The notes beneath the pieces were generated by a model that was not told where the DNA came from, made no database searches, and worked only from the letters and a program-made list of their open reading frames with translations. From Thioalkalivibrio sp. ALMg11 (lineage in GTDB: Bacteria; Pseudomonadota; Gammaproteobacteria; Ectothiorhodospirales; Ectothiorhodospiraceae): 64,000 nucleotides of DNA. The first letter of the stretch is position 1. The number at the start of each line of letters is the position of its first letter. Position numbers and translations under genes: made by a program. Below are positions 9,026 to 49,060 of the stretch, piece by piece. The stretch spans positions 1-64,000 of the forward strand of contig NZ_KB898873.1 in NCBI RefSeq assembly GCF_000377905.1. The letters are read 5' to 3'.

Positions 9026-11824
<2,799 letters not shown>

Positions 11825-38815: not shown

Positions 38816-39559
38816 CTAGTGTACGTCTTTCCAGTACTCCTTTTTCAAGAAGTAGGCAAGAATCGTAAAGATCCCGAGGAAAATCAGCACGTACAGGCCA
38901 ATTCGCTGACGGTCCAGCTGCATCGGCTCACCCATGTACGAGAGGTAGGTCACGAGATCGCGCACCGCACGGTCGTACTCGCTGGGCGTCATCTGGCCGG
39001 AGCGCACCAGCTCGAGACGCTCGTCACCATTCTCGTCGACGACCTTTTCCTGCCAGCCCTGCAGTTCCCACAACACGTGAGGCATGCCGACGTTGGAGAA
39101 CACCTCGTTGTTCGCACCCAGCGGGCGCGACTCGTCGATGTAGAAGCTCTTCAGGAAGGTATAGACCCAGTCCTCGCCATTGATGCGCGTGGTCATGGTC
39201 AGGTCCGGCGGGACCACACCGAAGGCCTCTTCGCCATAGTCGTCGCCCATGGCGTTCGTCATCAGCGAACCGACACCGACCGGATCACCGGACTCGTCGG
39301 TGATGAAGATGAAGTTCTCCTCCACCTGCTGCTCGGTCAGGCCGATATCGCGACCGACACGGTTGTAGCGCATGTACTCGGTCGAGTGACAGGCCATGCA
39401 GTAGTTCATGAACAGGTTGGCGCCGCGCTGGAGCGAGGCCTCGTTGGTCACGTCGACATTGGCCTTCTGCAGTCCGTCGCTGGACCCGGCCGCGGAGGCG
39501 GCCGGGACGGTGAACAGGGCCGCAGCGGCCAGGAACGTAGTTGCAATCAGCGTTTTCAT
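38816..39559 (-). CDS. petC: Cytochrome c1 subunit of the bc1 complex
   Basis: Cytochrome c1 passes electrons from the Rieske protein to soluble cytochrome c. The signal peptide ends near ASA (residue ~23). The heme c site CMACH is at residues 54-58, and the sixth-ligand region FSNVGMPHVLWEL is conserved. A C-terminal membrane anchor (LYVLIFLGIFTILAYFL) ends in KKEYWKDVH. It has 247 aa. The start overlaps the petB stop (TAATG). Confidence 0.96.
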   Translation of the reverse strand: MKTLIATTFLAAAALFTVPAASAAGSSDGLQKANVDVTNEASLQRGANLFMNYCMACHSTEYMRYNRVGRDIGLTEQQVEENFIFITDESGDPVGVGSLMTNAMGDDYGEEAFGVVPPDLTMTTRINGEDWVYTFLKSFYIDESRPLGANNEVFSNVGMPHVLWELQGWQEKVVDENGDERLELVRSGQMTPSEYDRAVRDLVTYLSYMGEPMQLDRQRIGLYVLIFLGIFTILAYFLKKEYWKDVH

Positions 39560-40968
39560 TAGGAAGTCACCCTTTCCGGAACGGCACGGTCACGGCCCAG
39601 GCCACGCGCGAACGCAGGGACCACCATGGTCACGAAGAGATATACGGTCGGAATCAGCCAGGACCACAAGATCAGGCTCCCGTCATTGGGATCGAAGCGC
39701 AGGATGTCGTAGATGGAGTAGATACCCACCACCACCGCAAACGCGATCAGACTGAAGAACATGGACCGCTCCCGGCTGAGGAACCACAGCACGAAGAAGA
39801 ACGCGAAGTAGACCGTGGAGAAGCGCAGGCTCATCTCGCTGACCTCGCTGGTGGCCTGCTGCAGGCCCAGCCAACCGAGGACCACGAACGCCACCACGAA
39901 CACCGCCAGGTTGAACTTGGCCGCGAACGAGCGATAGCGCATCGACAGGACCGGGTTGCGATCCAGCCAGGGGATGAAGAACAGCATCACGACCGCCGCG
40001 CCCATCGCCATCACGCCCAGGAACGGATCCGGCACCGAGCGCAGTACCGAGTACATCGAGGTGAAGTACCAGACCGGCGGAATCAGATCCGGGGTCACCA
40101 GCGGATCGGCCGGGATCATGTTGTCGGCCTTCAGGAACAGGCCACCCCCGGTGGGGAAGAAGAACATGATCGCGGCGAAGACCATCAGGAACACGCCAAC
40201 ACCCGCCAGATCCTTCACGGAGTAGTAGGGGTGGAACGGGATGCCATCCTTCGGGATGCCGTTCTCGTCCTTGTTTTTCTTGATCTCGACGCCATCCGGG
40301 TTATTCGAACCCACTTCGTGCAGCGCGATGATGTGCGCGGCCACCAGCATGATCAGCACCAGCGGCAGGGCAATCACGTGCAGTGCGAAGAACCGGTTCA
40401 ACGTGGCGTCGGACAGCAGGAAGTCACCGCGGATCCAGGTCACCAGGTCCGGCCCGATATACGGGATGGTCTGGAACAGGTTCACGATCACCTGCGCGCC
40501 CCAGTAGGACATCTGACCCCACGGCAGCAGGTAGCCGGCGAAGGCCTCGGCCATCAGCACCAGGTAGATCAGCACACCGAAGATCCAGATCAGCTCGCGC
40601 GGCTTCTTGTAGGAGCCGTAGAGCAACGCCCGGAACATGTGCAGGTAGACGACCACGAAGAACATCGAGGCGCCGGTGGAATGCATGTAGCGGATCAGCC
40701 AGCCCCACTCCACGTCGCGCATGATGTACTCGACCGATGCAAACGCGAGCTCGGCGTCGGGCTTGTAGAACATGGTCAAGAAGATACCGGAGACGAACTG
40801 GATGACCAGCACCAGCAGCGCCAGGGATCCGAAGAAATACCAGAAGTTGAAGTTCTTCGGTGCGTAGTACTGCGCCAGATGCTCGTTCCACATCTGGGAG
40901 AGCGGGAAGCGGGCGTCCACCCAGCCCAGTACACCGCCCTGGATCTTGGTATCAGGATTGCTAGCCAT
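39559..40968 (-). CDS. petB: Cytochrome b subunit of the bc1 complex
   Basis: This integral membrane subunit carries hemes bL and bH and both quinone sites. Its 469 aa include the Qo motif PPVWYFTSMYSVLRSVPD (PVWY in place of PEWY), the heme His pairs in GWLIRYMHSTGASMFFVVVYLHMFR and FFALHVIALPLVLIMLVAAHI, and GYLLPWGQMSYWGAQVI. The PEWY to PVWY change is worth checking against relatives. It is the middle gene of petABC, overlapping both neighbours. Confidence 0.97.
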   Translation of the reverse strand: MASNPDTKIQGGVLGWVDARFPLSQMWNEHLAQYYAPKNFNFWYFFGSLALLVLVIQFVSGIFLTMFYKPDAELAFASVEYIMRDVEWGWLIRYMHSTGASMFFVVVYLHMFRALLYGSYKKPRELIWIFGVLIYLVLMAEAFAGYLLPWGQMSYWGAQVIVNLFQTIPYIGPDLVTWIRGDFLLSDATLNRFFALHVIALPLVLIMLVAAHIIALHEVGSNNPDGVEIKKNKDENGIPKDGIPFHPYYSVKDLAGVGVFLMVFAAIMFFFPTGGGLFLKADNMIPADPLVTPDLIPPVWYFTSMYSVLRSVPDPFLGVMAMGAAVVMLFFIPWLDRNPVLSMRYRSFAAKFNLAVFVVAFVVLGWLGLQQATSEVSEMSLRFSTVYFAFFFVLWFLSRERSMFFSLIAFAVVVGIYSIYDILRFDPNDGSLILWSWLIPTVYLFVTMVVPAFARGLGRDRAVPERVTS

Positions 40969-41570
40969 CAGATCGCCTCCCCGTCTTCGTCTTCACCAAT
41001 GACAAGCAAGGTGTCGGTCCGATACATGTGCCGCGGGATCACCAGATTGGTCACCGCCGGCATGTTGCGGTACACGCGACCCGCAAGGTCGAAGCGCGAA
41101 CCGTGGCAGCCGCACAGCCAGCCGCCCAGCCAGTCGGAGCCCATCTCGGGATCGCCGATCTCCGGGCGGTAGGTCGGCGAGCAGCCCAGATGGGTGCAGA
41201 TACCGATGACGACCAGGATCTCGGGATCGCGCGAACGGTATTCGTTCTGCGCATATGCCGGCTGCTGGCTTTCCACTTCGGAGTCCGGATCGCGCAGGCG
41301 ATCGGCCACCTCGGCCAAACCGGCAACCATCTCGTCGGTGCGCCGCACTACCCAGATCGGCTGCCCGCGCCACTCGACGCTGACACGCTGACCCGGCTCG
41401 ACAGCGGCCACGTCGAACTCGACAGGGGCCCCGGCTGCCTGAGCGCGCGCGCTGGGCTGCAAGGACGCCAGGAACGGGGCCGCGACTGCGGCGACCCCGG
41501 CTCCGCCTACGACGGATGTCGCGGCGACGAGGAACCGGCGACGGCCTCGGTTTACGCCTTGGTTTGCCAT
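40968..41570 (-). CDS. petA: Rieske iron-sulfur subunit of the bc1 complex
   Basis: PetA carries the 2Fe-2S cluster that takes electrons from quinol. Ligands are visible as CTHLGC (Cys125, His127, Cys130) and CGCHGS (Cys153, Cys155, His156). The N-terminus GRRRFLVAATSVVGGAGVAA is a twin-arginine signal-anchor, as usual for Rieske proteins. ATG 41570 (MANQGVNRG) has GAGAGACAAAC upstream, giving 200 aa. It heads petABC. Confidence 0.96.
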   Translation of the reverse strand: MANQGVNRGRRRFLVAATSVVGGAGVAAVAAPFLASLQPSARAQAAGAPVEFDVAAVEPGQRVSVEWRGQPIWVVRRTDEMVAGLAEVADRLRDPDSEVESQQPAYAQNEYRSRDPEILVVIGICTHLGCSPTYRPEIGDPEMGSDWLGGWLCGCHGSRFDLAGRVYRNMPAVTNLVIPRHMYRTDTLLVIGEDEDGEAI

Positions 41571-41887
41571 GTTTGTCTCTCCAAACAACGTGTTGAAATC
41601 GTATTCCCGCGGCCGCACAAGGGAGGCGCGGCCGGTACGCGAAGGGGCTTGCCGCACGCGCGAATACCCATCTGGGCGGGCTGTAAAATGCGATAGAATT
41701 CCCGAACACGCTAATAAGGTCAAGTAGATTGCCGCCTTAAGACCGAGCATTGCACTCGGTCTCAGACCCCCGAAAACCCTATAAGCGGTTGATTATAAAT
41801 TTGCTTGTTCCGGGCGCCGCCAACGCCCCGAAACCGCACAATCTGCACCACAATCTCGCAGCGCGCTGCCCACAAGGGAGACAACGA
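41571..41887 (-). other. Non-coding region upstream of petABC
   Basis: These 317 bp separate the petA start from the end of the nif3-like gene. A possible promoter reads minus-strand TTGACC (41718-41723), a 17-bp gap, and AATTCT (41695-41700); the -10 match is poor. An AT-rich patch (about 41790-41810) lies next to the nif3-like gene end. I see no gene, tRNA or strong hairpin here. Confidence 0.5.
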
Positions 41888-43824: not shown

Positions 43825-44733
43825 TCAGCCGTTGGCCGGCGAGCTGACCGTGGTCAGCACCGCGGTTAGCAGCAGGACCAACGCCACCAGGGCGCCCTCC
43901 AGCGCGATGCTGCGCCGCAGACGCCGCGGTGCTCCCGCTTCGCCCCGCTCGAAGGCCGGCACCAGCCGCCACTTGTTCGCGGCCGCCAGCAGCAGGAGCA
44001 GTGCGACGATCAGCACCTTGCCGATCAGGAACTGGCCATAGCCGGTGGTCAACAACGGCGTGATGCCACCCAGCAACCACCAGGCGAGAACCAGCCCCGC
44101 CAGCACCAGCAGCCCGACCCCGATCATCGCGACCTGCCCAAAGCGAGCGAGGATGCGCGCGGCATCGGGACCCTCGGGTGGGTGCCCGGCCAGCCGGTAC
44201 AGCGGACCCAGCGACGCGACCCAGAAGGCGGCTGCCAGCAAATGCAGTATCAGCAAGCCGGCCAGCAGGGGGCGCGGCTCGTCCACCGTATGGCCCACCT
44301 GCACGAAGGCGAACATCACCAACAGCACCCCGGCCAGGCTCAGGCCATAGCCCACCCCCGGCAGACGCCGGGCATCCAACAGGATCGCCTGGACCAGTAG
44401 CAAGCCCGTCACCGCGAGAATCAATCGGGTGCCCTGCGCGCCCTCGAACACGATCCCCAGCAGCATGGGGTCCATCGCGGAGGCGATATTACCGCCCCCG
44501 AGATACCCGGCCTGCAACAGCCACTGCAGCATGGCCAGGGCGATTGCCACCCAGGCCGAGATCGCCCCTGTGCGGGCGAGCACCCGGCGATCCGGATCGG
44601 GCAGATCCGGAAACGCCAGGCGGAACAGCACCGCCCCGGTCGCCAGCAGGGCCCCGAGGTAGAACCCGGCCGTCACGAGGATCATCGCGACGGTCCAGGC
44701 CTCCACCCCGGCGAGTGCCGACATCCAAGCCAT
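43825..44733 (-). CDS. copD: Copper resistance protein D
   Basis: CopD is a polytopic inner-membrane protein thought to move copper into the cytoplasm or between compartments with CopC. The 302-aa product has eight predicted spans and the conserved His/Trp pattern of the CopD superfamily, including QVGHTVDEPRPLLAGLLILHLLAAAFWVASLGPLY and GQFLIGKVLIVALLLLLAAANKWRLVPAFERG. It follows copC by 3 bp, so the pair is one unit. Confidence 0.92.
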   Translation of the reverse strand: MAWMSALAGVEAWTVAMILVTAGFYLGALLATGAVLFRLAFPDLPDPDRRVLARTGAISAWVAIALAMLQWLLQAGYLGGGNIASAMDPMLLGIVFEGAQGTRLILAVTGLLLVQAILLDARRLPGVGYGLSLAGVLLVMFAFVQVGHTVDEPRPLLAGLLILHLLAAAFWVASLGPLYRLAGHPPEGPDAARILARFGQVAMIGVGLLVLAGLVLAWWLLGGITPLLTTGYGQFLIGKVLIVALLLLLAAANKWRLVPAFERGEAGAPRRLRRSIALEGALVALVLLLTAVLTTVSSPANG

Positions 44734-44736
44734 AGA

Positions 44737-45108
44737 TCAGTCCTCCACCGTGAAGCGGAAGCCATCGGACATCATGTGCCCGTCGCGTGCCAGACCGCGC
44801 CAGCGCACCTGATAGCTGCCGGCCGGAAGCGGCTCCGCAGGCTCCACAAAGTAGCGCTCGGTCGGCTCGCTGCCCGGCCGATTCGCCATGCTCACACGGC
44901 CGTTGGGGCCGGTCACGTCGAACTGGGTAATGCGCATCGCGCCATCGAACTCGATGCCGATCTCCTCCGGCGAGCCCTGCACGGTGGCGCCGTCCTTCGG
45001 CGTGCTGCCCAAATCGCCCTCATGGGCCAACAGCGGCATGGCCAGGGCCAGCAGCAGGGCCGCCACGGCGGCTCGGGTGGTGTTGTGGAGCGTGTTCTTG
45101 GTCTGCAT
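44737..45108 (-). CDS. copC: Periplasmic copper-binding protein CopC
   Basis: CopC is a small beta-barrel periplasmic copper carrier. The signal peptide ends LLALAMPLLA and the mature protein begins His-Glu, the free N-terminal His that binds Cu(II) in this family. The core includes STPKDGATVQGSPEEIGIEFDGAMRITQFDV, YQVRWRGLARDGHMMSDGFRFTVED, with a second His in DGHMMSDG. ATG 45108 has AGAGGAC upstream and gives 123 aa. Its neighbour copD and the copper oxidase upstream confirm the context. Confidence 0.92.
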   Translation of the reverse strand: MQTKNTLHNTTRAAVAALLLALAMPLLAHEGDLGSTPKDGATVQGSPEEIGIEFDGAMRITQFDVTGPNGRVSMANRPGSEPTERYFVEPAEPLPAGSYQVRWRGLARDGHMMSDGFRFTVED

Positions 45109-45217: not shown

Positions 45218-46627
45218 CTAGTGGTCGTGGCCTCCATGCCCCCCGTGACCGCCATGGCCACCATGGCCGTTCGTTTCACGGCTCGGGGTCGGCAGCGCGT
45301 CCGAGCCCTCGCCGGCGAGCTTGCCGCGGCGCACCGGGTTGCCGAAGTCGGGGTCATCGCTGACCATCCAGGCGACCTCGCCATCCGGGTGCCAGTACCA
45401 ACCGGGGTCGCGGAAGTCGCCCGGCTCCAGGTCATCGCGGACCTTGATCAGGGTGAACATCCCGCCCATGCCGATGCTGCCGAACGGGCCCTGACCCATG
45501 GCCATCGCCAGGGTGTTCTCCGGGCCGGTCATGTGACCGCCGTCGGTGTGCTCCTGGTGGTCGGCCATGCCGTGCTCGCCCATCGCCATATAGCCGGGGA
45601 GGATCGAGCGGATCTCTTCCTCGATACCGGACTGATCCACACCCAGTGGGTTGGCAATGCCGTGCCCCATCGGGTTCATGGTGTGGTGCGACATGTGGCA
45701 GTGGAACGCCCAGTCACCCGGTGGCGCAACGAACTCGACATCGCGCGTCTGCCCGACCGCCACAATCTCGGTGGTCTCCTTGCGCCACTGGTTGCGTGGC
45801 CAGCGACCGCCATCGGAGCCGGTCACCTCGAACGACACCCCGTGCACATGCATCGGGTGGTTCCACATCGACAGGTTGCCCATGCGGATACGCACCCGCT
45901 CGCCGGTCTTCGCCACCAGCGAGTCGATGGCCGGGAACACCTTGGAATTCATCGACCACAGATCGAAGTCCACCATGATCGACGGATCCGGGGTGCGGGT
46001 ACCGGGATGCAGTCCCCAGTTGTGCAACAGGATCGCGTAGTCGCGGTCCACCGGCTCGATCTCGCCATCCCTCGGGTGGATGATGAACATGCCCATCATC
46101 CCCATCGCCATCTGCACCATCTCGTCGGCATGCGGGTGGTACATGTGCGTGCCATGCTGGTTCAGCTCGAACTCGTAGACGAAGGTCTCGCCCGGGTGGA
46201 TCGGCGGCTGGGTCACTCCCTTCACACCATCCATGCCCGAGGGCAGGTGGATGCCGTGCCAGTGCACCGAGGTGTACTCGGGCAGCCGGTTGGTCACGTA
46301 GATGCGGACACGATCGCCCTCCACCGCCTCGATGGTCGGCCCGGGCGTGGTGCCGTTATAGCCCCAGCACTTGGCCACCGAACCGGGCGCGAACTCGTGC
46401 TCGATCTCCTCGGCCACCAGGTGAAACTCCTTCACCCCGTCGTTCATCTGGTACGGCAGCGTCCAGCCATTGGGCGTATGCACCGGCATGTAGCCCTGCT
46501 CGGTACGATCGCCGGGGGTGTGGTCGCCCTGGTTGTGGTGCTCGTGACCCGTTTCGGCCATCACCCGCGTCAGGGTGGTTGCCGGCAGCAGGGCGCTGGC
46601 GGCAATCAGAAAGTTACGGCGTTTCAT
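45218..46627 (-). CDS. Periplasmic multicopper oxidase (CopA/CueO-like)
   Basis: This is a three-domain blue copper oxidase, probably oxidising Cu(I) in the periplasm. The N-terminus MKRRNFLIAASALLPA is a twin-arginine-type signal. Type 2/3 copper ligands appear as HWHG (His122, His124), HPH (164, 166), NHPMHVHG (257-262) and HCHMSHH (309-315), with type 1 Cys310 and Met320. The C-terminus is a Gly-Gly-His repeat (GGHGGHGGHGGHDH). The 469-aa length is typical of compact family members. ATG 46627 overlaps the stop of the TolC-like gene (TGATG), so the two are coupled. The exact subfamily is not certain. Confidence 0.9.
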   Translation of the reverse strand: MKRRNFLIAASALLPATTLTRVMAETGHEHHNQGDHTPGDRTEQGYMPVHTPNGWTLPYQMNDGVKEFHLVAEEIEHEFAPGSVAKCWGYNGTTPGPTIEAVEGDRVRIYVTNRLPEYTSVHWHGIHLPSGMDGVKGVTQPPIHPGETFVYEFELNQHGTHMYHPHADEMVQMAMGMMGMFIIHPRDGEIEPVDRDYAILLHNWGLHPGTRTPDPSIMVDFDLWSMNSKVFPAIDSLVAKTGERVRIRMGNLSMWNHPMHVHGVSFEVTGSDGGRWPRNQWRKETTEIVAVGQTRDVEFVAPPGDWAFHCHMSHHTMNPMGHGIANPLGVDQSGIEEEIRSILPGYMAMGEHGMADHQEHTDGGHMTGPENTLAMAMGQGPFGSIGMGGMFTLIKVRDDLEPGDFRDPGWYWHPDGEVAWMVSDDPDFGNPVRRGKLAGEGSDALPTPSRETNGHGGHGGHGGHGGHDH

Positions 46628-48459
46628 CAGTGATGCCCTCCATGCCCGTGGTTGGAATGATCGCGGTGATCCTGGCCCTGCTGACCGTGGTCATCGTGAT
46701 CCATGCCCTCGCCCTCGTGGCCCTCGTGGCCCTCGTGGCCCTCATGGCCCTCATGGTCCTCATGGTCCTCATGGCCCTCATGGCCCTCATGGCCCTCATG
46801 ACCTTCATGACCTTCATGACCTTCATGACCTTCATGACCTTCATGACCTTCGTGGCCTTCGTGACCTTCGTGACCTTCGTGGCCTTCGTGGCCTTCGTGG
46901 CCTTCGTGGCCTTCGTGGCCTTCGTGGCCTTCGTGGCCTTCGTGGCCTTCGTGGCCTTCGTCATGATCCATCCCGTCATGGGCCCCGTGATCCCCGTGGT
47001 CCATGCCGGAATGCCCTTCATCGCCACCGCCATGATCCATGGCACCGTGATCCATGGCACCGTGATCCATGGCACCGTGATCCATGGGCGCCGGGTCGTG
47101 CTCCAGCTGCGCGGTCTCGAACTTGCCGGCACTGCCCGGTTCGCCGCCCGGCAATTCACCGGCCACGGAATGCGCCAGCGCAGCACGCGCCTGCCAGTAG
47201 TCACCCAGGGCCGCGATCGCCTTCTGCCAGTCCGCCAGCTCCTCCTGCTTGATCGCGAGCAGGTCGAACACGTCGTCGAACATGAAGTTCACGCGTTCCT
47301 GGAGCCGCTCGGTCGCCAGCTCGCGGGCCGGCAGCAGATCGTCCTGCAGCACGCCGAAGCGAGTGCGGTGGTGGGTCAGACGCTCGAAGTGCTGGTGCAC
47401 ATCATTGGTAATCACCTGCACCAGCGACTCGCGCCGCGCCTCGCCGTCCGCCAGCCGTGCCTCGGCGCGGCCAATACCGGCCTGGTTCTGGTTGAAGATC
47501 GGCAGCGTGAACGAGATGCCTCCACCCCACAGGCGGGTCCCGTCACCCTCGCGCTCAAACTCCAACCCCGGCTCGATATCCCCCATCCAGCGGTAGCGCC
47601 GCACCAGGGCCACGCCCTCGGTCAGCCCATCCAGGGCATGATCCAGCGCGCGCAGATCCAGGCGCTGTTCCAGCGCCTGGTCCACCAGGGCCTGGCGCTC
47701 CTCGACCTCTGCCAGCGGCAGCGGCAGCTCTTTCGAAAGCTCCCAGTCATCGACCTCGCCAGGCAGCCCCATCAGATGCGCGAGGCGCAGCCGCGCCTCG
47801 CGCTCGCGCTGGCGGGCATCCTCGAGCTCCAAGCGCGCCTCGGCGGCGCGGATGCGCAGTTGCGCGCGCTGAAGATCCGACACGTTGCCGGCCTCATAAA
47901 AGCGTTCGCCCAGGCGGGCACCCAGGTCGGCCGCACGGGTCTCCAGACGCTGCACCTCCGCGCGCTGGCGCGCGGCCACCGCGTCATACCAGGCGCGCTC
48001 GGTATCGCTGGCCAGCGCGACCATCCCTTCGGCCAGTTGCAGACGGGTGGATTCCCAGTGCGACTGCGCCATCTCCTGGCGGGAGCTACGCATCAGCAGG
48101 CCGGAGATTCCCCAGGCCAGGCCGACGCCGTACTCGTTACCGCCACCACCCTCGGGGCGCATCACCGACAGCGACAGCGAAGGGTTGGAAAACTGGGAGG
48201 CCTCGACCACGTCGACCGCGGTCAGGTCCAGCTTGGCGTAGGCCTGCTGCATGCGCGGGTTGCGCCAGATGGCCTGGTGAACAGCCTCGTCGAGCGTCAG
48301 CTCGCCGGAGGGTCGGGGCATCTCCGACTCGGGCAGGTCGATCCCCTGCACCGAGACGTCCTCCGCCAGTTCGGACCGATCCAGCTCGGGCGCGGTAACC
48401 GCGCAACCGGCGAGGAACAGTACCGACACCACGGGGAGCAGCAATCGGGTTGCTCGCAT
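46627..48459 (-). CDS. TolC-family outer-membrane efflux lipoprotein with a giant His-rich C-terminal tail
   Basis: This is an outer-membrane channel protein of the OEP/CusC type with an added metal-binding tail. The signal peptide ends in the lipobox LAGC (Cys19). The OEP domain (about residues 50-450) has long heptad-rich helices, such as LASDTERAWYDAVAARQRAEV and LGERFYEAGNVSDLQRAQLRI. The last ~155 residues contain MDHGA repeats and 20-odd consecutive Glu-Gly-His units with further His-Asp-rich sequence. ATG 48459 has AAGGAG upstream; the length is 610 aa. It is coupled to the oxidase. No CusA/CusB-like RND pump or adaptor gene is nearby. The tail would lie in the periplasm by OEP topology, which is inference. 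Confidence 0.88.
   Translation of the reverse strand: MRATRLLLPVVSVLFLAGCAVTAPELDRSELAEDVSVQGIDLPESEMPRPSGELTLDEAVHQAIWRNPRMQQAYAKLDLTAVDVVEASQFSNPSLSLSVMRPEGGGGNEYGVGLAWGISGLLMRSSRQEMAQSHWESTRLQLAEGMVALASDTERAWYDAVAARQRAEVQRLETRAADLGARLGERFYEAGNVSDLQRAQLRIRAAEARLELEDARQREREARLRLAHLMGLPGEVDDWELSKELPLPLAEVEERQALVDQALEQRLDLRALDHALDGLTEGVALVRRYRWMGDIEPGLEFEREGDGTRLWGGGISFTLPIFNQNQAGIGRAEARLADGEARRESLVQVITNDVHQHFERLTHHRTRFGVLQDDLLPARELATERLQERVNFMFDDVFDLLAIKQEELADWQKAIAALGDYWQARAALAHSVAGELPGGEPGSAGKFETAQLEHDPAPMDHGAMDHGAMDHGAMDHGGGDEGHSGMDHGDHGAHDGMDHDEGHEGHEGHEGHEGHEGHEGHEGHEGHEGHEGHEGHEGHEGHEGHEGHEGHEGHEGHEGHEGHEDHEDHEGHEGHEGHEGHEGEGMDHDDHGQQGQDHRDHSNHGHGGHH
46711..46959. repeat. Tandem 9-bp repeat, 27 units, coding Glu-Gly-His
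   Basis: From 46711 the plus strand repeats gccctcgtg (3), gccctcatg (2), gtcctcatg (2), gccctcatg (3), accttcatg (5), accttcgtg, gccttcgtg, accttcgtg (2) and gccttcgtg (8); a degenerate 28th unit follows. The units read in the coding strand as His-Glu-Gly (or His-Glu-Asp for gtc). The clustering of synonymous variants into blocks indicates stepwise tandem expansion. All units keep the 3-base frame. Confidence 0.97.
47036..47080. repeat. Tandem 15-bp repeat, three units, coding MDHGA
   Basis: The plus strand repeats tccatggcaccgtga exactly three times, and a partial fourth unit begins at 47081. It encodes the Met-Asp-His-Gly-Ala motif at the base of the His-rich tail, between the OEP domain and the Glu-Gly-His array. 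Confidence 0.95.
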
Positions 48460-48474
48460 CGTGAAAATCTCCTT

Positions 48475-48496
48475 GATTCCGTACTCGATTCCGTAC
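48475..48496. promoter_or_regulatory. 10-bp direct repeat upstream of the TolC-like gene
   Basis: gattccgtac occurs twice (48475-48484 and 48487-48496) with a 2-bp spacer, so the period is 12 bp, immediately upstream of the ribosome site of the gene starting at 48459. It may be an operator or a chance repeat. It does not look like the known CopR box. Confidence 0.35.
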
Positions 48497-48589
48497 CGCG
48501 CGCGAAAGCACGACACGGGCATGCCGCCCGCTGCTGGGAATCCCCCAGACACACGGGCAGGAACCGGCCAAACGGCCGGCACTGCGGGA

Positions 48590-49060
48590 TCAGGAGAGGA
48601 TTGGAGGGCGGTGCAACGCGACCGCGGAAGGGCCGCTCTGGAAGGAATGCAGGCTTGCGCCCTGTGCGACCGTCGTCAGCACACTCATGCCGGTGATGGA
48701 CGGCATGCCCTGACAATGGCTGCAGGCGGCGCAGGCAGCCAGACAGGCCGCGTCCACGCAATCGACATGTACGAGCAGCTCGCTGGCCTGGGAGTGTCCC
48801 GATGAAGGAGCAGGGTCCGAACCATGCGGCGAACCGGCGTGGCCCGCCCGGTCGCCATGCGCATGGTGATGATGGGCAGCGTCGTGCCCGTGATCGTGGG
48901 CCTCGTGCTCGGCATCGCCCTTGGACTGGGCACCTTGCACCGTGTGCCCAGCGTGACCGTCTTCCATTCCCACAGCCGCCGCCAGCGCCGGCAGGCCGGC
49001 AATCGCCAGCACCAGCATCCAGCACAGCAGTCGGAAGAAGACTCGGTTCACGTCGGTCAC
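48590..49060 (-). CDS. His/Cys-rich secreted protein, CopL-like
   Basis: This is a small secreted protein with an N-terminal hydrophobic signal (FFRLLCWMLVLAIAGLPALAAA). A His/Asp-rich mid-region follows (about residues 35-85, with HDHGHDAAHHHHAHGD). Then comes a cluster of cysteines (CVDAACLAACAACSHCQGM, near residues 100-117) and an end reading ALHRPPILS. CopL proteins upstream of copA in Xanthomonas-type operons have this His-rich, Cys-rich secreted architecture and are needed for copper-induced expression. The match is architectural. Start choice is between GTG 49060 (156 aa) and GTG 49051. It is the first gene of the CopL-TolC-oxidase run, 130 bp before the TolC-like gene. Confidence 0.65.
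   Translation of the reverse strand: MTDVNRVFFRLLCWMLVLAIAGLPALAAAVGMEDGHAGHTVQGAQSKGDAEHEAHDHGHDAAHHHHAHGDRAGHAGSPHGSDPAPSSGHSQASELLVHVDCVDAACLAACAACSHCQGMPSITGMSVLTTVAQGASLHSFQSGPSAVALHRPPILS

Follow-up and report, generated by a model that had tools for sequence, protein, structure and literature searches.

Operons resembling the locus analyzed here are known from Sinorhizobium. In S. meliloti, omp and cueO were induced by copper 646- and 243-fold, respectively, and an omp mutant was hypersensitive to copper (PMC4932525); the Sinorhizobium operon comprises Omp, CueO, an azurin-like protein and a chaperone (PMC6266702). For the Pco system, the exact function of PcoB has been called uncertain, and PcoE has been characterized as a metal sponge of the periplasm (PMC7558416). 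CopL was already placed among the CutF-like proteins, whose mechanism has been described and whose commonest neighbor is an outer membrane efflux protein (OEP) described as associated with resistance-nodulation-division (RND) pumps (PMC9973294). Here, we analyzed a stretch of 64,000 nucleotides from Thioalkalivibrio sp. ALMg11 (contig NZ_KB898873.1, positions 1 to 64,000; the window), which carries on its minus strand an operon in the order of leader open reading frame (ORF), TolC-family OEP, multicopper oxidase (MCO), CopC, and CopD. The locus belongs, as a variant, to a copper-tolerance module that is widespread; it shows a new OEP tail variant, a terminal histidine signature unreported in the literature searched and a predicted leader switch.

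The MCO was searched at E<=1e-70 in 369 genomes of the same class and 397 genomes across the phylum, and 60 loci were sampled in this way, plus 15 via the OEP. An OEP lay directly 5′ of the MCO in all 59 MCO-ascertained loci having upstream sequence, and the MCO lay directly 3′ of the OEP in 15 of the 15 OEP-ascertained loci. RND sequences occurred within ~6 kb of the pair in five of the 59 (L065, L069, L071, L103, and L115) and in none of the 15. Because the pairing is so regular and RND sequences are rarely nearby, OEP and MCO are the unit, and the pump-free state is normal for this OEP family and not peculiar to this locus. The coupling to an oxidase without a pump, which the first-pass annotation had noticed in the window, thus turned out to be the rule. 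Named plasmids from Burkholderia, Sulfitobacter, and Sinorhizobium carried the same gene order, with CopC/CopD or cupredoxins. In S. meliloti, the loci examined had the described content of Omp, CueO, azurin and chaperone, and their OEPs were members of the same family as those of the sampled OEP-MCO modules (hereafter cassettes). By analogy, we infer that OEP and MCO have the same role here as in Sinorhizobium, and the copper role suggested earlier gains outside support from omp-cueO (PMC4932525, PMC6266702).

In the window, the MCO start overlaps the OEP stop codon, and the Cop/Pco-type set of MCO, CopC and CopD is present within one operon; the earlier description had OEP and MCO right and overlooked CopC and CopD. 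No match to CopB/PcoB (PF05275) was found in the whole genome, and no RND pump or adaptor gene was adjacent to the operon. The OEP gene (ATG at 48459, stop at 46627–46629) was confirmed together with its lipobox; its product matched PF02321 with E 7e-43 and 147 bits vs. a cut-off of 22. A phmmer search of the OEP domain against the PDB gave no match at E 0.01. The MCO aligned with the first and last domains of the three-domain 6vow, the middle domain being missing, and over both domains of the two-domain laccase 2zwn (5 entries, 15 chains). It scored 169 bits against the CopA/PcoA subfamily profile TIGR01480, under the cut-off of 479, and a Met-containing C-terminal extension of ~110 residues followed its second cupredoxin domain.

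A C-terminal His was present in 63 of the 78 cassette OEPs and in 0 of 25 control OEPs from outside the cassettes, taken from genomes that carry a cassette and from that of the window. It was also found in 38 of 74 MCO partners. For the analysis of long tails, tails were cut where the OEP domain ends, and a long His tail was defined by 9 or more His. Such tails were detected in 20 of the 78 cassette OEPs and were of two kinds: Thioalkalivibrio and two relatives had DHG, EGH or DH sequences, and four other loci (L062, L067, L068, and L069) had Met/His-rich stretches, MDHSGHDM-like or other. The remaining cassette OEPs had mostly a linker of ~15–25 residues, often rich in Gly/Ala, with a His at the end. 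The OEP C-termini of loci L035–L121 were mostly seen to close on one final His (...GGH). In the OEP-domain tree, long tails needed four changes, all within one 23-row group of moderate support (87), and the terminal His occurred in both halves of the tree. On these patterns, the long tail is best regarded as the enlarged form of a C-terminal His which tends to be retained in the OEP-MCO family. The long tail as the basis of the OEP-MCO partnership did not hold: most partners lacked it and had only a linker ending in His. The terminal-His signature is unreported in the literature searched, and a full-text search of that literature found no TolC-family protein with a His-rich tail and no TolC-MCO operon in copper resistance.

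The His-rich tail with MDHG repeats and a Glu-Gly-His array, as noticed before, was borne out. It comprises 172 residues from residue 439, with 45 His and 51 Asp/Glu; residues 459–477 read MDHGAMDHGAMDHGAMDHG, with four MDHG units, and the 27-unit EGH array was detected by TRF as a 9-bp repeat. The codon variants within the array were 29 synonymous and 2 non-synonymous (opportunities 5 to 22), in a count where duplicated units are non-independent events. Because this variation is almost wholly synonymous, it argues for probable selection on the composition of the tail and not for bare slippage. Among named genomes, Thioalkalivibrio versutus AL2 was the closest, with 95% across the region of the OEP domain. 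All of the 15 loci found in Thioalkalivibrio and near relatives had a His-rich tail, 58 to 125 residues long as against 172 in the window; the tail chemistry varied from EGH, DHG or DH/EH repeats to irregular His-rich sequence, and the C-terminal GGHH was invariant in these 15 and the window OEP. Matches of the tail to Collagen/SclB were rejected as low-complexity artefacts. In the established TolC/OprM fold, the C-terminus departs at mid-height of the helical barrel, where the equatorial domain lies. The suggested position of the tail around the channel mouth conflicts with this fold; a flexible tail of 172 residues could reach the mouth and would not be anchored there.

The protein encoded upstream of the OEP had been called CopL-like. 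It has CutF/CopL leader features, namely a signal peptide (identified by eye), a Cys-rich metal motif and a C-terminal PP, as in PMC9973294; its length of 156 aa is just above the 150-aa filter used there. The profile match was weak (20 bits against NF033807, under the cut-off of 40), and DUF2946 (PF11162) gave no match in the leader. An upstream ORF with a C-terminal PP motif occurred at 59 of 74 loci under a lenient motif filter, which probably admitted a few false cases (L098 and L102). The final codons and stop of the leader (ATCCTCTCCTGATC) are complementary to the Shine-Dalgarno (SD) sequence of the OEP (GATCAAGGAGA). Over 28 loci with a gap of <180 nt, a set that kept 3 of 13 Thioalkalivibrio relatives, the duplex energy of cognate anti-SD/SD pairs averaged −15.7 kcal/mol vs. 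−10.6 for swapped pairs, so anti-SD and SD appear to co-vary across Proteobacteria. The observed cognate mean was reached by 0 of 10,000 permutations, a comparison that still contains shared ancestry and base composition (GC). An earlier run, in which the next gene was often wrongly picked, gave p<0.05 for 19 of 57, a weaker signal. For the window, the SD core (GGAG) was predicted to be paired with P about 1.0; this value was ~0.12 with the end of the leader masked as a ribosome footprint. The upstream protein is therefore better read as a putative CutF/CopL-type copper-sensing leader controlling translation of the OEP, rather than as a metal carrier, and the conserved pairing suggests that translational control of the CutF type may cover much of the OEP-MCO operon class. 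By analogy with CutF, the switch would respond to copper.

Taken together, we regard it as fairly probable that the locus is a copper-inducible, Cop/Pco-like tolerance operon, in which a pump-independent OEP-oxidase pair works with a tail that serves as a disordered periplasmic Cu(II) buffer. The TolC-family OEP would fill the outer-membrane place of CopB/PcoB in copABCD/pcoABCD. The nascent leader would sense periplasmic copper, and a ribosome held at its C-terminal RPP would uncover the OEP SD, which would lead to synthesis of the OEP, oxidase, CopC, and CopD. The Tat-exported two-domain oxidase would convert Cu(I) to Cu(II), which an OEP trimer, paired with the oxidase rather than with a dedicated RND pump, would hold and probably export. 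The tails, three per trimer with about 135 His, would then act as the Cu(II) buffer and represent the enlarged form of the family-wide C-terminal His.

Several points weigh against this proposal. In known systems, it is a pump of the inner membrane and its adaptor that open the OEP, and the genome encodes nine full-length RND proteins, one of which could be the true partner of the OEP. Sinorhizobium omp was tied to the cassette family by operon content and not by the sequence of the mutated gene itself, and the S. meliloti OEPs that were read lacked a long tail. The leader was assigned to CopL/CutF by motifs, with profile scores under their cut-offs, and the ancestry and GC content retained in the permutations also count here, as does the composition of the 28-locus set, which leaves out many alphaproteobacterial loci with a long gap between leader and gene. 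The AlphaFold models of the OEP (mean pLDDT, the predicted local distance difference test, 49.9; alignment of 16 sequences, window and close relatives) and of the MCO (mean pLDDT 37; alignment of 15 sequences) were too poor to use.

The first rival holds that the OEP is the outer part of an ordinary tripartite pump, borrowing an RND-adaptor pair encoded elsewhere, and that the tail merely raises the local metal concentration. Several pumps share one OEP in the case of E. coli TolC, and one of the nine RND proteins is of the CzcA/CusA type. The cassette OEPs also keep an aGN motif, which presumably resembles the first tip turn of typical OEPs. However, their second tip region (YNxM..vFeLL), which we take to differ from the pump-type tip, is conserved within the family, and RND sequence lies near the pair in just five of 59 loci. 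The CzcA-type pump is on another contig with its own adjoining OEP and His-rich adaptor (L155:3640–9602, G000:C10), and this looks like a complete, putative Czc-type system. We consider a borrowed pump rather unlikely.

Docking of the oxidase trimer on the OEP trimer is an attractive idea by analogy, because two-domain laccases are trimers. A pump-independent copper machine could be built in this way, in which the C-terminal His would be a hand-over site, enlarged to a His-rich antenna in Thioalkalivibrio and relatives; this version is speculative, and we hold it to be doubtful. In a further alternative, the C-terminal His and tail would serve to metallate or dock the oxidase, with copper passed between OEP tail and MCO, both as trimers. 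It would fit the inseparability of the two proteins in our sample, the frequent C-terminal His on both, and the alignment of the MCO over both domains of 2zwn. Yet the trimer state would follow from homologs, the OEP-MCO contact is conjectural, and the poor MCO model gives no help, so this alternative appears improbable.

In pure sequestration, the channel function would be irrelevant and the OEP would be the membrane anchor of a copper sponge, like PcoE/SilE. The large number of His and the role of PcoE as a periplasmic metal sponge (PMC7558416) speak for it. However, a full channel domain is kept in most cassette OEPs without a long tail, and the matching Sinorhizobium OEPs end in one His although copper tolerance requires omp; this explanation is very unlikely. 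That triplet-repeat expansion produced a tail without function can hardly be believed and was already disfavored: array length varies strongly between strains and the repeat units differ, but 16/16 sequences retain the reading frame, the His content and the final GGHH, the variation within the array is almost wholly synonymous, and different units (EGH, DHG, and DH) converge on one composition.

The proposed tolerance operon with a pump-independent OEP-oxidase pair bears on a wider question. The exit route of Cu(II) from periplasmic oxidases is unclear even in Pco/Cop, and an OEP beside the oxidase is relevant to it. The C-terminal His is usually kept, across several proteobacterial classes, so removal of one residue would be a simple test, and in the tails one and the same device occurs naturally in different lengths.

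The features of the locus are listed in Table 1. A 705-aa ORF on the plus strand opposite the OEP (46579–48696) was rejected as a mirror frame of GC-rich DNA. Judged from the sequence alone, the stretch 38816–41750, a short distance downstream of the copper operon, probably holds the cytochrome bc1 genes (c1, b, and Rieske), and a division and cell-wall cluster with likely secA, lpxC, ftsZ, ftsA, and mur/mra genes lies at 9026–31998.

Table 1. Features of the copper operon in the window (Thioalkalivibrio sp. ALMg11).
Feature	Position	Strand	Remarks
Leader ORF	48590..49060	-	156 aa, GTG start; signal peptide, His-rich middle, CVDAACLAACAACSHC, C-terminal LHRPPILS; putative CutF/CopL type
Anti-Shine-Dalgarno TCTCCTGATC	48588..48597	-	embedded in last codons and stop of leader
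Shine-Dalgarno AAGGAG of OEP gene	48469..48474	-	predicted pairing with anti-SD
TolC-family OEP lipoprotein, 610 aa	46627..48459	-	lipobox LAGC (Cys19), two PF02321 domains
His-rich C-terminal tail of OEP, residues 439-610	46630..47145	-	45 His
MDHG(A) x4 in OEP tail, residues 459-477	47029..47085	-	Met/His motif, similar to MDHSGHDM of other tail-bearing relatives
EGH array, 27 tripeptide units, OEP residues 501-581	46717..46959	-	21 EGH, 2 EDH, 4 EGH
C-terminal HGGHH of OEP, invariant	46630..46644	-	corresponds to one terminal His (...GGH) across the family
Two-domain MCO, 469 aa	45218..46627	-	Tat-like signal; His-rich C-terminus HGGHGGHGGHGGHDH
CopC	44737..45108	-	PF04234 E 4e-19
CopD	43825..44733	-	PF05425 E 1e-22

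Compared with known systems, the locus shares the OEP lipoprotein family with the CusCFBA and CzcCBA pumps; in contrast to these, its operon has no RND or adaptor gene and the OEP is paired with an oxidase. Like CutF-CutO of Rhodobacter capsulatus, it has a leader that is exported, rich in Cys and furnished with a PP motif at the C-terminus, and the SD of the next gene is hidden by upstream RNA. The difference is that the anti-SD here lies within the leader's own last codons, the first target is the OEP, 130 nt away, and the arrangement is a predicted one. In the Cop/Pco systems (copABCD, pcoABCDE, and Xanthomonas copLAB), too, one operon unites an MCO, an outer-membrane protein, CopC, CopD and a leader of the CopL type, and Met/His-rich motifs of the MDH type occur. 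However, the outer-membrane protein here is an OEP and not CopB/PcoB, and the MCO lacks the middle domain and stays under the TIGR01480 cut-off. The omp-cueO operon of S. meliloti lacks a long His tail and carries genes for azurin and copper binding where the locus has CopC/CopD; it agrees with the locus in an OEP followed by the same MCO family with no adjacent RND pump, in an upstream leader-like ORF with C-terminal RPP, in cupredoxin/chaperone genes downstream and, in the plasmid copy of strain GR4, in the C-terminal His of the OEP.

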